The notes below the pieces were generated by a model. The model was not told where the DNA came from and ran no database searches. It saw only the letters and a list, made by a program, of their open reading frames with translations. Shown here piece after piece: positions 33,737 through 39,502 of a stretch of 64,000 nt of DNA. The position numbers and the translations under genes are program-made. The first letter of the stretch is position 1, and every line of letters begins with the position of its first letter. Source of the stretch: Brumimicrobium oceani (GTDB lineage Bacteria; Bacteroidota; Bacteroidia; Flavobacteriales_D; Crocinitomicaceae). The DNA lies in NCBI RefSeq assembly GCF_003143775.1, contig NZ_QFRJ01000004.1, forward strand, positions 1 through 64,000, in the 5' to 3' direction.

Positions 33737-34057
33737 GGGGAAATTGATAGTTTGGTGGCCACTCTTCCGAATGTTTTCACACCCAACAATGATGGTATAA
33801 ATGACTTTTTTAATGTGAAGGTGAATCTTCCTGTTACTTATGATTTGGTGATTTTAAATCGCTGGGGAAATGTTGCTTTTGACTGGAAAGGGAAACTAGA
33901 GAAAGGTCAAAACAATTTATGGAATGGAGAAAGCAAAAATGGCGATAAAGTAAGCGACGGAGTATATTTTTATCGCATAGAGTTTTCTCAAATGGAATGG
34001 GTTGAAAAGGAAAGTTTCTGGGTATGTACATGTGATTGGGAAATAATCACGAATTGA
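33737..34057 (+). pseudogene. orphan CHU_C (T9SS type B) domain fragment
   Basis: About 105 codons encoding an isolated type B sorting domain (IDSLVATLPNVFTPNNDGINDFFNV, LVILNRWGNVAFDW, NLWNGESKNGDKVSDGVYFYRIEF). It closely resembles the last ~95 residues of the 666-residue adhesin (FDSLVASLPNVFTPNNDGVNDYFNV). It has no signal peptide, no ATG near its beginning (the first in-frame candidate is a TTG) and no passenger domain. It is best read as the remnant of a second type B adhesin gene, or a reservoir for recombination with the intact copy. Confidence 0.75.
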
Positions 34058-34236: not shown

Positions 34237-36000
34237 TTAAACACCATAAATCTTATCCACTTTATCCTTATGGATCTCCATGATTTTCTTACGTTTAAAT
34301 TTCAAAGTTGGAGTAATTTCGCCCTTCTCTACTGAGAATTCTTCATCTAGTAATTCAAACTTTTTAATTTTCTCAAATTGTCCAAATAATTCATTGTATT
34401 GCTCTATTTCTTGACGAATTCTATCAATAACAGCAGGATGTTCGACCAATTCTTTGTTTGTTTTACCTACAGAAATATTTTTTCTAACTGCCCATTCTCT
34501 TACGAAATCATAAGAAGGAATAACCAATGCAGCCGGGTGTTTTCGTCCCTCACCAATAACCATTAGTTGTTCTATAAACCTTGATTCTTTAAATTTATTT
34601 TCCATCATTTGAGGAATAATATATTTTCCTCCAGATGTTTTAAATATTTCTTTCTTACGGTCGGTAATTTTCAGGAATTTCCCATCAATCATTTCACCGA
34701 TATCTCCCGTATGGAACCATCCATCATCAGTAAGCACTTCAGCAGTTTTTTCAGGTTGATTGTAGTAACCCATCATCACACTTGGTCCACGAACAATAAT
34801 TTCACCATCCTCTGCAAACTTCACTTCTACGTTATCTAGCACAGGCCCTACTGTTCCGAATTTTATTCCTTTTTTAAGACAGTTAACCGAAATAACTGGA
34901 GAAGTTTCCGTTAATCCGTATCCTTCTAGAATTGGAATTTCGGCAGCTAGGAATATTCTTGCGAGACGTGGTTGAAGCGCTGCTGCACCCGAAGCAATTG
35001 CCAAAACTTCGCCTCCTAAGGCCTCCTGCCATTTGGAAAAAATAAGTTTTCTAGCGATTTTCAATTTGAAATTATACCAACCAGATTTCCCTTCTTGTTC
35101 AAATTCTTCACCAACTGAAACAGCCCAAAAGAAAAGTGCTTTCTTAATTCCAGTAAGTTCATCACCTTTAGAAATAATCTTTTCATAAACTTTCTCAATT
35201 AATCGAGGTACAGCGGTAAAGACATGAGGTTTTACCTCCTTGATATTTTCTCCAATCGTTTCTAAACTTTCAGCAAAGTGAATTGAAAATCCTGCACGCA
35301 TATATAAGTAATGCAACATTCTTTCATAAACATGACAAACAGGTAAAAAAGTTAAAGATCTACTGTTGGCATCTCCTGGAATACTCGGGTAACTTCCATA
35401 TACATTTGAAAGAATATTGTTGTGAGAAAGCATAACACCTTTAGGATTTCCGGTTGTTCCAGAAGTATAAATCATGGTGGCTAAATCTTCATTTTTGATC
35501 ACCGCCTTTCTTTTTTCTACTTCAGCGATATCAATTTTACCAGCCTGATCCATAATTTCTGTCCAATGACTTGCGCCTTTGACTTCATCGAAGCAGTAAA
35601 TACTTTTTAGAGAAGGTAGTTCACTTTTTATTCCGCTGATTTTTTGATAAAGCTCATCATCACCAATTACACACAGTTTTATATCGGCATCGCCAAAAAT
35701 GTATTTATAGTCTTTTGTAGAGATATTTGGATAAATAGGCACTCCTATTGCTCCAGTTTGTTGAATTCCGATATCCATGATATTCCATTCCACCCTATTT
35801 CCTGAAACCAATCCAATTTTGTCGCCTGGCTGAACACCAAGAGCAATTAAACCTCTAGAAACTAAATTTGCTTTTTCTAAAAATTCTTTGGTGCTTACGG
35901 AATCCCACTTTCCATCTCTTTTAGTGGAAAACATTGTTTCTTGAGGGAATTTTTCAAGCTGGTAATAAGGTATATCGAATAATCGTTCTTGTTTTTCCAT
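34237..36000 (-). CDS. long-chain fatty acid-CoA ligase (AMP-forming)
   Basis: A 587-residue adenylate-forming enzyme that activates fatty acids to acyl-CoA. Motifs: P-loop TMIYTSGTTGNPKGVML (~183-199), LPVCHVYERM, GYGLTETSPVIS, TGDIGEMIDGKFLKITDRKKE, and GKYIIPQMMENKFKES with the expected C-terminal domain. The length and the LPxxHxxER element fit the FAA1/long-chain (FadD15-like) subfamily. It is single and divergent from the ECF sigma gene, with a 206-base region between. Confidence 0.93.
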   Translation of the reverse strand: MEKQERLFDIPYYQLEKFPQETMFSTKRDGKWDSVSTKEFLEKANLVSRGLIALGVQPGDKIGLVSGNRVEWNIMDIGIQQTGAIGVPIYPNISTKDYKYIFGDADIKLCVIGDDELYQKISGIKSELPSLKSIYCFDEVKGASHWTEIMDQAGKIDIAEVEKRKAVIKNEDLATMIYTSGTTGNPKGVMLSHNNILSNVYGSYPSIPGDANSRSLTFLPVCHVYERMLHYLYMRAGFSIHFAESLETIGENIKEVKPHVFTAVPRLIEKVYEKIISKGDELTGIKKALFFWAVSVGEEFEQEGKSGWYNFKLKIARKLIFSKWQEALGGEVLAIASGAAALQPRLARIFLAAEIPILEGYGLTETSPVISVNCLKKGIKFGTVGPVLDNVEVKFAEDGEIIVRGPSVMMGYYNQPEKTAEVLTDDGWFHTGDIGEMIDGKFLKITDRKKEIFKTSGGKYIIPQMMENKFKESRFIEQLMVIGEGRKHPAALVIPSYDFVREWAVRKNISVGKTNKELVEHPAVIDRIRQEIEQYNELFGQFEKIKKFELLDEEFSVEKGEITPTLKFKRKKIMEIHKDKVDKIYGV

Positions 36001-36206
36001 AGTTTTAGATTTTACATGCTTAAATCTACTAAAAAAATATCATTTACATCTAATTTCCATGCTATTATTGAATTTTAAAAAATCAACAATAAGAAAGGTT
36101 GATTATTATCAAGGTTTTAACTAAAAATAACTTAATTTAGAAAATAATTGAATTGAGGTGTAACTTTTACACCCCTTAAATTGTTTTACTGTTAAATGCA
36201 CACTTT

Positions 36207-36689
36207 TTGACCAGAAGAGAATACAATATGGCTGTTAAAAAACATTCTTCCAATTTATATGGATATGTTTTTAGCTTTCTCCGCAACAGCGAGGATAGTC
36301 AGGATATTGTACAAGATGTTTTTGAGAAATTGTGGAAAAACAAGAAGAAAGTTGAAGTTGAAAAATGCAAAGCATGGATGTTCAGAACAGGCCACAACAC
36401 ATTGATCAACTTTGCAAAAAGGAAACAGCGCACTGTTTATAATACAGAACTGATTCCGGAACAGATAAATTTAGACAATCGTTTCGAGACCCAAGAAATT
36501 ATTGATTTAGCTTTATCACTTCTTCCCCCACTTCAAAAAAGTATTGTTCTCCTAAGGGATTTAGAAGGGTATAAGTATGAAGAAATAGCTGAAATATTGG
36601 AAATATCTGATAGTCAAGTGAAGGTCTATTTATACAGAGCGAGAAAAAAAATTAAAAAACAGTTAGGCGATTTAACGTTAATTCAATGA
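36207..36689 (+). CDS. ECF-type RNA polymerase sigma factor
   Basis: A ~160-residue sigma-70 family protein with region 2 (SNLYGYVFSFLRNSEDSQDIVQDVFEKLWKN, ~15-45) and region 4 (LPPLQKSIVLLRDLEGYKYEEIAEILEISDSQVKVYLYRARKKIKKQ, ~105-150), and no region 1 or 3. A TTG at 36207 (TRREYNMAVKKHS) gives an N-terminus that fits ECF proteins better than the in-frame ATG at 36228. The stop overlaps the next start (ATGA at 36686), so it is coupled to the anti-sigma/barrel protein. Within Bacteroidota such ECF factors often act in cell-envelope responses, and P. gingivalis SigP controls T9SS genes; here the co-encoded PorP suggests a related role. Confidence 0.93.
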   Translation: MTRREYNMAVKKHSSNLYGYVFSFLRNSEDSQDIVQDVFEKLWKNKKKVEVEKCKAWMFRTGHNTLINFAKRKQRTVYNTELIPEQINLDNRFETQEIIDLALSLLPPLQKSIVLLRDLEGYKYEEIAEILEISDSQVKVYLYRARKKIKKQLGDLTLIQ

Positions 36690-38449
36690 GTGTACCAAAT
36701 TTCGAAAATATAGACCGATGGCTTTTTGAATACACAGAAGGGAACCTTTCTGCGGATCAAGAAGCACAATTATTGGACTTTTTGGAGCTACACCCAGAGT
36801 TAATGCCAGAACTGAAGGCTTGGAAAAGTGCTAAGGTAGCTGCACCAGTTCACGAAGCAATAGCTACTCAACATTTAATAAAAGCTACACCTCTTCTACT
36901 TCGGCCATATTCTTTGGTAAGTTTAGTTTTTATCTCTCTTCTTTTAACTTGGTTTGGAATTGAAATGATTCCTGAAACGCCACTCTACTCCAAAGCACAC
37001 ATTGATACTGGAATCATAGACGCAGGAAATGAGGAGTCTGACGAATTTGATCAGTTCCTATCAATGTCAGAACAGAGAACTACACACAAAAAGGACGACT
37101 TGATTAAAACTGAGCGTGCCAAACTGGAAAACTCTTTAACAACTCAGGAGTCAAACCAGAATAAAGTACACAAGGCTAAAACAATCAAAGCATCACCTAT
37201 TAAAGTTTCCAATTCCGGAGTTGATGCAGAGATTCAAAAATTAAAAGAAGAAGCACTCCAAAACGAACTTTTCTCTAAATTAACTATGAATGAAAACTGG
37301 GAGGATAGCGAGCAGGACTTTGCTTTTCAAACAGGGCACCGTAATATTCAGTCTGGAGATTTAAATAAAATATCAGATTATCTAAATGGTAAAGATCAAG
37401 ATGAAATTCAGACTACAGTTCAAGAAAACTTAGCGAATCAGCGCAACAATAATTCATCAAGCACGAGTGCTTCGCAATCAACTTTGGCCAAGTCAATTAA
37501 AAATACGTTTAGAAAAATCAAACGCATGGCCGATTATCCTGTAGCACTGCAGAAAACCAAAAATCCGTACTTCCACGCACCAATGATGACTGGATACAAA
37601 GCTAACTTTGCAATGGTGGGAACTGCTCCAGGAAATAGAATTGAAGCAACTTCGCGCCTGCATTGGATGAACGAAAGCAACAGTCAGCTCATGAATTCTC
37701 TTTCGTGGGATGGATACGCTCACGCCATTCGAGGAGGATTAGGTGTTGACATAAACTACAACAACTATCAAAATAATGACCTCAACAATTTCTCTGCGGC
37801 ATTAACTTATTCTCCGAAATTGGCAATTTCTAAAAAGATTTCTTTTGAACCTGCTTTACGTTTTAAAATGGGGGTTATTAACTTAGATATGGCCGCAAGC
37901 AGTATAGGTAAAACAGTGGAATTGGACAGAGAAAACATTATTCCTCTTTTTGAAGGTCAGCAGCAAGTGAATGGCCAACAACTTTGGTATCGAGATATTG
38001 GATTAGGCTTTATGATCAACACAGACTGGTTCTATATAGGATTTAACGCAGACAATATTGGCCGACATAACAATAACTTCTATTCAGCTGATTTGAGTAA
38101 AGAGTACAAATCTGACTTGCATTGTACTGCTGTTTTCGGAACGGAGTATGCCTCAAAAACCAAGGAGTTAAGACTAAGTGGATACGGATTATATCAAAAA
38201 TACGGAGCACTTGAAGAATTTTGGTTGGGAAGTAACTTCCAATACGAATGGTTTCAGATTGGAGCAGCCGCCAGTTCAAACCTTGATTTAGCGGCATCCT
38301 TGGGAGCTGTATTTAAAGGATTAAGTTTTCACTACAATATAGATTATACAAAAAGCAGGTTGCTGAACAAACAGGTGTTGTCGCACCAGGTAACCATGAG
38401 AATATTATTAAAACCTAGCAGACATGTTGCTAAATTTTTAAAAATTTAA
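36686..38449 (+). CDS. putative two-membrane anti-sigma factor with PorP/SprF-like beta-barrel
   Basis: A 587-residue protein of mixed design. Residues 1-60 resemble a cytoplasmic anti-sigma segment (IDRWLFEYTEGNLSADQEAQLLDFLELHPEL). One hydrophobic helix (74-92) would span the inner membrane. Residues ~95-280 are polar, charged and Ser/Asn-rich, enough to cross the periplasm. Residues ~285-587 alternate in the manner of outer-membrane beta strands and resemble PorP/SprF proteins (YHAPMMTGYKANFA-like start, LSFHYNIDYTKSRL near the end). Its start overlaps the ECF sigma stop. The layout corresponds to the dual membrane-spanning anti-sigma factors (Dma) described in Bacteroides thetaiotaomicron; the PorP-like barrel and PorP neighbour are the distinctive parts here. 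The barrel assignment is by eye. Confidence 0.75.
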   Translation: MSVPNFENIDRWLFEYTEGNLSADQEAQLLDFLELHPELMPELKAWKSAKVAAPVHEAIATQHLIKATPLLLRPYSLVSLVFISLLLTWFGIEMIPETPLYSKAHIDTGIIDAGNEESDEFDQFLSMSEQRTTHKKDDLIKTERAKLENSLTTQESNQNKVHKAKTIKASPIKVSNSGVDAEIQKLKEEALQNELFSKLTMNENWEDSEQDFAFQTGHRNIQSGDLNKISDYLNGKDQDEIQTTVQENLANQRNNNSSSTSASQSTLAKSIKNTFRKIKRMADYPVALQKTKNPYFHAPMMTGYKANFAMVGTAPGNRIEATSRLHWMNESNSQLMNSLSWDGYAHAIRGGLGVDINYNNYQNNDLNNFSAALTYSPKLAISKKISFEPALRFKMGVINLDMAASSIGKTVELDRENIIPLFEGQQQVNGQQLWYRDIGLGFMINTDWFYIGFNADNIGRHNNNFYSADLSKEYKSDLHCTAVFGTEYASKTKELRLSGYGLYQKYGALEEFWLGSNFQYEWFQIGAAASSNLDLAASLGAVFKGLSFHYNIDYTKSRLLNKQVLSHQVTMRILLKPSRHVAKFLKI

Positions 38450-38464
38450 GAAAATCGATTCATT

Positions 38465-39421
38465 ATGAAAAAAATACTCATCATATTCATGTTTTTCCTA
38501 ATTGGAGAAGTGCACGCTCAAGACCCTCAGTTTTCGCAGTTCTATGCAAATCCCATTTATTTGAATCCTGCTTTTGCCGGAAGTCATGGTTGTCCTAGGT
38601 TTGCAGTCAACTATAGGAATCAATGGCCACAACTTGATGGTTCTTACGTAACATACTCAGCATCATACGATCAATATTTTAAAGGAATAAACGGTGGACT
38701 GGGAGTTATTATGACGCACGACCAGCAAGGAAAAGGGACGATCAATCACACTACATTGAGTTTAATTTATAATTACCATTTAAAGGTAAACCGTAAATTC
38801 ACAATGATGTTTGCTGGAAAAGCGACTTGGAATCAAAAATTTCTGGACTGGGACAGATTGACCTTTGGCGATATGATTGATCCAAGAAGAGGGTTCATTT
38901 ACGCCACAGGTGATGTTCCAAGAGGGGGATCTCGAGGATTCTTTGATGTTTCCGCTGGAATGGTAGGATTTACTGAAAAGTTTTTCTTTGGTGTTTCTGC
39001 TCATCATTTAAATATGCCAGATGAATCCGTAATTGTTGGAAATAGTCCAATGCCTATTCGTTTGACTGGTCACGCTGGAGCAAAACTTCCTTTGGGTGGA
39101 AAATCTCAATACAACACCGATATTTCTATAATGCCCAATATGATTTACCAATATCAGCAAGGATTTATGGAAATGTTGTTGGGAACTTATGTACAATACG
39201 GCGCATTTACAGCAGGAGTTTGGTTTAGATCTAGAGATGCATTTATTTTATCTGCAGGAATTAACACCGGAACGATAAAAGTAGGATATAGCTATGATGT
39301 TACGGTATCAAGATTAAACAATGGCGTTACTGGAGGCTCGCATGAAGTTTCTTTAGGATTCGACCTAAATTGTAAAACGAAGAAGCCTAGTTTTAGAACT
39401 ATTTCTTGTCCATCTTTCTAA
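38465..39421 (+). CDS. PorP/SprF family type IX secretion system outer-membrane protein
   Basis: A 318-residue beta-barrel protein with a signal peptide (~1-18, ending VHAQ). The PorP/SprF start DPQFSQFYANPIYLNPAFAGS is unmistakable, followed by YRNQWPQL, GLGVIMTHDQQGKGTI and the end GYSYDVTVSRLNNGVTGGSHEVSLGFDL. PorP/SprF proteins help export or attach T9SS cargo, in several species specifically type B substrates such as the SprB adhesin. Gliding genomes carry many paralogues, so it is not safe to name it sprF. It is 15 bases after the barrel-fusion gene and ends the operon. Confidence 0.93.
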   Translation: MKKILIIFMFFLIGEVHAQDPQFSQFYANPIYLNPAFAGSHGCPRFAVNYRNQWPQLDGSYVTYSASYDQYFKGINGGLGVIMTHDQQGKGTINHTTLSLIYNYHLKVNRKFTMMFAGKATWNQKFLDWDRLTFGDMIDPRRGFIYATGDVPRGGSRGFFDVSAGMVGFTEKFFFGVSAHHLNMPDESVIVGNSPMPIRLTGHAGAKLPLGGKSQYNTDISIMPNMIYQYQQGFMEMLLGTYVQYGAFTAGVWFRSRDAFILSAGINTGTIKVGYSYDVTVSRLNNGVTGGSHEVSLGFDLNCKTKKPSFRTISCPSF

Positions 39422-39470
39422 AGTAGTGTTTTAATAAGGTTTAACTACTACTTTATTTGTTTGATGATGA

Positions 39471-39502
39471 GGGGATTTCATTGAGTTGGAATCCCCTTTT
39501 TT
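39471..39502 (+). terminator. terminator of the sigma-barrel-PorP operon
   Basis: GGGGATT (39471-39477) pairs with AATCCCC (39490-39496), followed by TTTTTT. A second weaker hairpin (AAAGTAGT / ACTACTTT) lies just before it at ~39420-39454. Confidence 0.88.

Follow-up and report, generated by a model that had tools for sequence, protein, structure and literature searches.

A candidate dual-membrane-spanning anti-sigma factor with a PorP/SprF-type barrel, encoded between an ECF sigma gene and a duplicate porP in Brumimicrobium oceani and its relatives

The closest described counterparts of the system reported here are the Dma proteins of Bacteroides thetaiotaomicron, which combine an anti-sigma head, one transmembrane segment, a long disordered tether and a C-terminal beta-barrel, and whose genes adjoin genes for extracytoplasmic function (ECF) sigma factors, that of Dma2 lying in a three-gene operon (PMC13088901). 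For the type IX secretion system (T9SS), type B proteins are described as the cargo of PorP/SprF shuttles (PMC12618676; PMC9143113), the C-x-C of SprF is disulfide-bonded to GldK (PMC12635249), and for SigP of Porphyromonas gingivalis a feedback from the surface to the cytoplasm has been proposed in which the surface activating step is left unresolved (PMC7712824). Here we analyzed the first 64,000 nucleotides of contig NZ_QFRJ01000004.1 of Brumimicrobium oceani (assembly GCF_003143775.1), hereafter the window, in which an ECF sigma gene is followed by a gene for a 587-residue protein (the fusion) with an anti-sigma-like head and a PorP/SprF-type C-terminus, and then by a gene of the PorP/SprF family (the partner PorP). 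To our knowledge, the way in which Bacteroidota keep outer-membrane shuttle supply in step with type IX cargo is an open question. Our proposal, which we rate as evenly poised between right and wrong, is that the fusion is an autoregulated, Dma-like trans-envelope anti-sigma factor whose PorP-type barrel would sense the state of the T9SS shuttle or its cargo and induce a spare shuttle. The features of the locus, with open reading frames abbreviated as ORFs, are as follows.

36207 to 36689, + strand: ECF sigma gene, 160 residues, TTG start with an in-frame ATG alternative at 36228 (ORF, Pfam)
36686 to 38449, + strand: fusion gene, 587 residues, candidate dual-membrane-spanning anti-sigma factor with a PorP-type barrel
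36686 to 36835, + strand: fusion residues 1-50, predicted anti-sigma-like three-helix head, cytoplasmic (AlphaFold model, Foldseek)
36905 to 36964, + strand: fusion residues 74-93, predicted sole transmembrane helix (model, hydrophobicity scan)
36965 to 37483, + strand: fusion residues 94-266, predicted periplasmic tether, polar, of low model confidence (model)
37559 to 38401, + strand: fusion residues 292-572, PorP/SprF domain, modelled as a barrel (PF11751, model)
38465 to 39421, + strand: PorP/SprF-family gene, 318 residues (PF11751, E 8.4e-58)
36159 to 36185, + strand: predicted ECF-type promoter TGTAAC-N16-TTGTT (motif scan upstream of the operon)
39469 to 39498, + strand: terminator-like hairpin with a T run, 3' of porP (hairpin search)
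34237 to 36000, - strand: acyl-CoA ligase-like gene, divergent and outside the operon, which marks the locus in many relatives

The first-pass annotation of the window had described three coupled or closely spaced genes, and all three ORFs are present: the sigma and fusion genes share an ATGA overlap, and 15 bases separate the fusion gene from porP. It had also taken the C-terminus of the fusion to be patterned like PorP/SprF, which was borne out by domain, profile and fold comparisons. Residues 292-572 match Pfam PF11751 (PorP_SprF) with an E-value of 2.7e-18 and 66.9 bits, against a cut-off of 22.3, and the same family was matched at E<=0.01 by 66 of 78 aligned fusion homologues. When the profile of these 78 sequences was aligned with that of 24 partner PorPs by hhalign, the probability was 99.8 and the E-value 2.7e-28 over 293 columns, the core motifs of PorP aligning between the two. 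The fusion scored 72.6 bits against NCBIfam TIGR03519, under the cut-off of 90.55, which suggests a divergent relative and not a standard shuttle. An AlphaFold2 model of the fusion alone, built on the alignment of 78 sequences (mean predicted local distance difference test score (pLDDT) 78; predicted template modelling score 0.59), placed a barrel at residues 318-574 with a pLDDT mostly >90, as the first reading had anticipated; 14 long strands were counted in it by eye, and two short strands (410-420) were taken as loop. The top solved structures found with this model by Foldseek were chain F of the T9SS translocon entries 6h3i (E 4.2e-6) and 8gl6 (E 5.4e-6), which we take to be PorV, followed by FadL, TodX, BamA and OmpG-type barrels. 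The TM-scores were low (query-normalised 0.31-0.33), in part since the query includes the head and the tether. Sequence searches of the PDB, run with the fusion by itself and with each of the two alignments, returned nothing useful.

Supporting a dual-membrane layout was the remainder of the model, in which a transmembrane helix at residues 74-93 is followed by a tether at approximately 94-266 with a pLDDT mostly of 36-60. A hydrophobic 19-mer above threshold, that is, a first transmembrane segment, was found in 73 of the 78 homologues and a second, within the tether, in none of the 78. The distance from the transmembrane column to the column of N290 is 152-272 residues in the 78 homologues, which, as judged from the alignment, is ample for crossing a periplasm. 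A signal-peptide start was not seen in the fusion by the model or the hydrophobicity threshold, as the helical head comes first and the earliest hydrophobic segment is that at 74-93. The Dma-like arrangement of one helix, long tether and barrel suggested in the first-pass annotation is thus found in the model and recurs among the homologues. Compared by described layout, the fusion shares with the Dma family the transmembrane helix, the long tether, the barrel, the adjacent ECF sigma gene and the three-gene operon, and appears to differ from it in its PorP/SprF-type barrel and in having, as third gene, a duplicate of the PorP from the core T9SS/gliding locus. With the PorP/SprF type B shuttles it shares the barrel domain by Pfam, hhalign and fold; it adjoins a PorP gene, and in the family f24 described below it lies near type B cargo-like ORFs, but a predicted cytoplasmic head and inner-membrane anchor stand in place of a signal peptide.

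The head itself was modelled as three helices (residues 9-18, 23-35 and 37-49) with a pLDDT of 93-98. A Foldseek search with the model of residues 1-110 over 350,542 PDB chains gave eight matches up to E 10, the first six of which were anti-sigma chains of RsiW/ChrR (best E 1.1, probability 0.63), a likeness to anti-sigma folds that is statistically weak but specific. Class I anti-sigma factors such as RsiW and ChrR and the FecR-type proteins likewise combine a small helical head with a neighbouring ECF sigma factor. FecR and RsiW are anchored in the inner membrane, and FecR-type proteins end in a periplasmic domain. The fusion differs from these in lacking a Pfam anti-sigma or FecR domain and in that, according to the model, it would reach the outer membrane itself. 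The head domain recurs in another ECF-linked protein encoded by the genome that contains the window (hhalign to its residues 72-157, probability 96.3, E 1.6e-9). That protein (L196; G000:C1, ECF gene at about 362697) has 358 residues with the fusion-type head before a transmembrane helix, and its first 50 residues look by eye like a further copy of the head.

To assess conservation, two overlapping samples were used: 40 operons that were read in detail, and 80 loci from named genomes, these being the best 80 of 128 relatives. Relatives named among the loci were Brumimicrobium, Lishizhenia, Crocinitomix, Fluviicola and metagenome-assembled genomes mostly labelled Crocinitomicaceae or Flavobacteriales. 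The sigma gene lies directly upstream in all 40 operons, usually via a 4-base ATGA overlap, and in 79 of the 80 loci, the single miss being a locus where the contig starts 90 bp before the fusion. PorP is directly downstream in 35/40 operons, the other five contigs ending 125-250 bp past the fusion, and in 63/80 loci, where all misses are contigs that end <=250 bp past the fusion stop. Spacing between the fusion and PorP is mostly <20 bases or a short overlap in the 40 operons, and in one of the 80 loci (L159) the fusion ORF is cut short at 276 residues. Since both neighbours are near-invariant and the misses fall at contig ends, the gene order is not attributable to chance, and the three-gene order noted in the window holds across its relatives. 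Contigs that end <=250 bp past the fusion, at or inside porP, appear strikingly frequent (L050, L051, L066, L076 and L079, and 17/80 loci among L083-L162). Random contig breaks were rejected as the cause of the missing porP genes, given that a near-identical copy elsewhere makes porP an intragenomic repeat; it is this second copy that is the likely reason for contigs ending inside the gene.

A BLAST search of 99 genomes of relatives, including that of the window, identified the fusion in 36 of 60 family members, two of which have an N-terminal fragment of it where a contig ends. Another six genomes with the fusion come from different families within the order, and one further fusion from another family (G081) was added through the promoter search. 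In a class-wide sample comprising 395 genomes, 8 of the 10 genomes sampled from family f24, which is outside the order, accounted for the listed full-length matches beyond the home family, and the remaining listed matches were either PorP by itself or fragments from f1. Scoring covered roughly three first-look candidates per genome, such that weaker fusions could be missed. In the f24 operons, the sigma gene has the same promoter type in 8/8, and PorP sequence is downstream in 8/8 and intact in six (L283 has a short fragment and L287 two pieces). An ORF of 1082-1297 residues follows in four of the eight; a type B sorting domain scan of three of these gave one score above the cut-off of 35 (53.2) and two just under it (34.4 and 31.1).

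The partner PorP has a twin elsewhere in the genome (G000:C23) with a mature protein 99.7% identical and a mature-part DNA 87.4% identical. This core copy sits between a divergent porU-porV-ispF cluster and gldJ-murF (NCBIfam names), and the other core loci that were read have a similar neighbourhood, as determined by protein comparison or by ORF size and ends. Among 17 genomes with both copies, protein identity was >=98% in eight pairs. The PorP tree mostly pairs the copies by genome, with 16 label changes of which >=14 are forced by well-supported branches; the exceptions to pairing by genome are G045/G058, G028, G046 and G047/G059. For the pair in the genome of the window, synonymous divergence (dS) was 0.93 and nonsynonymous divergence (dN) 0.004, while orthologues at similar dS show a dN of 0.02-0.07, and the median ratio of nonsynonymous to synonymous differences (pn/ps) was 0.084 for 10 within-genome pairs versus 0.33 for 92 between-genome pairs, the latter not being independent. 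Low amino-acid change at comparable dS was not shown by G003, G014, G028, G046 and G061. Gene conversion alone was rejected as the source of the PorP identity, based on the dN of the window's genome being lower than that of orthologues at similar dS. Two or more close PorP copies were present in 24/36 family genomes with the fusion and in 4/24 without it (Fisher p 1.8e-4, with genomes counted as independent despite their relatedness). Seven fusion genomes show no close copy at all at the threshold applied, an absence that probably stems from assemblies breaking at the twin copies. In one genome in which no fusion was found (G021), the gldJ-like-linked copy is broken by stops and the acyl-CoA-ligase-linked copy is intact, which indicates that the second copy is probably able to replace the core one.

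The tail of the partner PorP carries a C-x11-C with an SCPSF end, and its two cysteines, C303 and C315, are invariant in 24 aligned copies. This arrangement recalls but does not equal the C-x-C of SprF, and the fusion differs from SprF in having none of the conserved C-tail cysteines that in SprF attach the shuttle to GldK (PMC12635249). A second porP was also observed beside a like acyl-CoA ligase gene with the sigma gene and the fusion absent (L230, L231, L237, L239 and L302).

Alignment by MAFFT of the ten upstream regions from the genus revealed a conserved GGTGTAACTTTT block and, downstream of it, a TTGTTT block. When 119 upstream regions were scanned, GTAAC with [TG][TG]GTT was identified in 104, always as TGTAAC and nearly always with TTGTT then T-T-A. 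Counted over spacings of 8-24 with no preference imposed, TTGTT lay at 16 in 100 cases, at 15 in two and at 8-9 in seven. The remaining 15 regions comprised 11 one-base variants with the same geometry, two without the motif in the stretch that was read, one that is N, and one in which the assigned start codon is too far upstream. The promoter is present in 8/8 f24 operons, at a spacing of 15-16. In 64 of the 104 regions the -10 element is 20-39 bases 5' of the sigma start, so near that the leader would be very short; the sigma ORF, as called here, starts with TTG in most homologues.

In the ten genus genomes, the motif precedes the operon in nine and a variant does so in the tenth. There were 18 sites in all, nine of them the operon promoters and nine others, compared with five in the reversed control, which suggests that the motif-defined regulon is small. 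On these counts a broad T9SS regulon was not seen for the TTGTT promoter, and the idea was rejected. The core, gldJ-linked porP has the TTGTT promoter type in none of 18 loci; by eye, GTAAC-N16/17-CGT is within 65 bp of its start in 12/18, an element that recalls the CGT-box SM6 promoters that serve T9SS genes in Flavobacterium psychrophilum (PMC9723704). G081 has the sigma gene and the fusion without porP, with the promoter 58 bp upstream (L266), and its second porP, on another contig (L236), carries the same promoter about 60 bp upstream; in G087, of the same genus, the second porP (L234) carries the TTGTT promoter too. It is likely from these sites that control of porP by the sigma factor was kept when linkage was lost. 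The predicted regulon is the operon itself and, in one distant relative, an unlinked porP, rather than the T9SS genes as a whole. A link of an ECF sigma factor to T9SS expression is common to this locus and to PorXY-SigP of P. gingivalis, but SigP acts via a two-component system on many T9SS genes, whereas the candidate here is a direct trans-envelope anti-sigma factor and its sigma factor has a small motif-defined regulon. In three genera (L269, L271 and L274), the same TGTAAC-N16-TTGTT was also seen ahead of a small lipoprotein-like ORF close to a gene that looks pheS-like by eye, and in two genera (L268 and L273) it was seen ahead of small outer-membrane-barrel-like ORFs.

The architecture and the operon logic are well supported, the promoter and the duplication being read from sequence and models; sigma binding, insertion of the barrel in the outer membrane, the sensed signal and the release step are what we infer from them. 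We propose that the head of the fusion would hold the ECF sigma factor at the inner membrane, which the protein would cross once, with the tether spanning the periplasm and the PorP-type barrel sitting in the outer membrane. The signal would most likely be type B cargo or translocon sites unserved by free PorP, or else failed barrel assembly. When the barrel reports too little shuttle or too much cargo, the head would free the sigma factor, which would then transcribe its own operon and so yield more sensor, to end the response, and additional PorP, which is the same protein as that of the core locus. The sensor would be fixed to the inner membrane, and the shuttle may instead be attached to the track. 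More specifically, and only tentatively, a secretion shuttle may have been duplicated and remodelled into a trans-envelope sensor of its own kind, whose barrel would compete with genuine PorP for translocon sites or type B cargo, report the level of free shuttle and, by way of a dedicated sigma factor and promoter, switch on a second gene for the identical shuttle protein. Because the PorP next to the fusion duplicates the gldJ-linked one almost exactly, shuttle supply fits better as the output. If the competition reading is correct, the protein would be a direct type IX feedback meter within one envelope-spanning molecule. Sensor, sigma factor, promoter and output would, if the proposal holds, be small parts within one operon, and the arrangement suggests that some aquatic Bacteroidota watch and tune their secretion apparatus right at the outer membrane. 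The Dma-type layout was known already, and a PorP-type barrel within it would be new; new here are the conserved predicted ECF-type promoter of the operon and the recognition, by sequence comparison, of its PorP as a duplicate of the gldJ-linked one. Neither a PorP-type anti-sigma factor nor an ECF-anti-sigma-PorP operon was among the matches listed in the open-access literature, subscription papers and preprints lying outside that scope.

It is important to note that several observations weigh against this proposal. The E-values of the head against anti-sigma folds are weak (best 1.1), and no Pfam family, anti-sigma or FecR included, matched the head in the Pfam scan. The conserved C-tail cysteines of PorP are absent from the tails of the aligned fusions and the fusion barrel is only ~22% identical to PorP, such that the barrel may have lost cargo or track binding. 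Protein identity between the two PorP copies is <85% in five of the 17 genomes, the promoter may have few further targets (nine non-operon sites versus five in the control), and the unlinked-porP case is confined to one genus. Moreover, the second porP is kept without sigma and fusion in some lineages, which argues that the link is dispensable.

Other explanations of the locus start from the same evidence. The fusion could be a general outer-membrane stress sensor of the Dma type, its barrel reporting barrel folding or lipid state, with PorP merely one output and no cargo sensed. Dma1 and Dma2 share the layout and affect vesiculation (PMC13088901), and the fusion is far less conserved than the partner PorP (mean column identity of 31% versus 63% in the alignments of 78 and 24 sequences), both of which fit such a role; we nevertheless consider it rather unlikely, because the barrel is a T9SS shuttle homologue, the constant output in two families is a T9SS shuttle, and the motif-defined regulon found in the searches is narrower than one would expect of a general stress sigma factor.

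Alternatively, the neighbouring PorP might be the real receptor and the fusion barrel its contact, in the way that a TonB-dependent receptor signals to FecR. The close spacing of the two genes would suit such a relay, as would the same promoter on the unlinked porP of one relative, but the fusion ends in a modelled barrel where FecR-type proteins have a periplasmic domain, and a dedicated receptor role is less likely because the same PorP is also made from the core locus; on balance we regard this relay as improbable. Finally, the fusion might be no regulator at all but a PorP with an inner-membrane tether that fastens type B cargo or the gliding track to that membrane and is merely co-transcribed with the sigma gene. 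PorP/SprF proteins do anchor cargo (PMC12635249; PMC12618676), and the alignment of the PorP core motifs in the fusion accords with this. That the sigma gene is directly upstream wherever the contig is readable, normally with a 4-base overlap, and that the head is similar to anti-sigma folds and occurs again next to a different ECF gene, lead us to judge a purely structural role very improbable.

With regard to the remaining features of the locus, the sigma protein matches Pfam Sigma70_r4_2 (1.6e-19) and Sigma70_r2 (4.2e-12). NCBIfam NF058625 (sigma_PG0214/GFO_1088) was rejected as its family, based on a score of 121.3 bits versus a cut-off of 130. At 30 loci with strong members of NF058625 found class-wide, the next ORF was a closed frame of <300 residues in 29, which is too short for a head plus a barrel; at the other (L170, G128:C15), the NF058625-type sigma gene is followed by an open frame of 502 residues or more. 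One hairpin was observed over the region versus 2.2 expected in shuffles, and it is therefore the position of the terminator-like hairpin, and not the number of hairpins, that is the argument for it. Approximately 2 kb from the operon, at 33752-34057 of the window, is a short ORF with a T9SS type B sorting domain (TIGR04131, 41.9 bits) from which the rest of a cargo gene is absent, perhaps a remnant.

Other ECF-linked proteins were also noted. In the genome of the window, L202 (G000:C1, ECF gene at about 191957) has 418 residues with a transmembrane segment near residue 47 and an end that is barrel-like by eye; it had no convincing Pfam or NCBIfam match and is possibly a more ordinary Dma-type anti-sigma factor. 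L195 (G000:C1, ECF gene at about 195929) has a transmembrane segment and a PKD domain (PF18911, 1.1e-8), and L275 (G068:C1) has a type B sorting-like end (TIGR04131, 33.2 bits, under the cut-off of 35). L197 (G000:C2:99257-100390, ECF gene at about 100422) has 378 residues with a single transmembrane segment, a PKD domain and, at its C-terminus, a CHU_C type IX secretion signal domain (PF13585, E 4.5e-14; TIGR04131, 28.9 bits against the same cut-off), and is thus a candidate anti-sigma factor ending in a cargo signal. Near-full-length relatives of L197 are present in the other nine genomes of the genus and in several other families.

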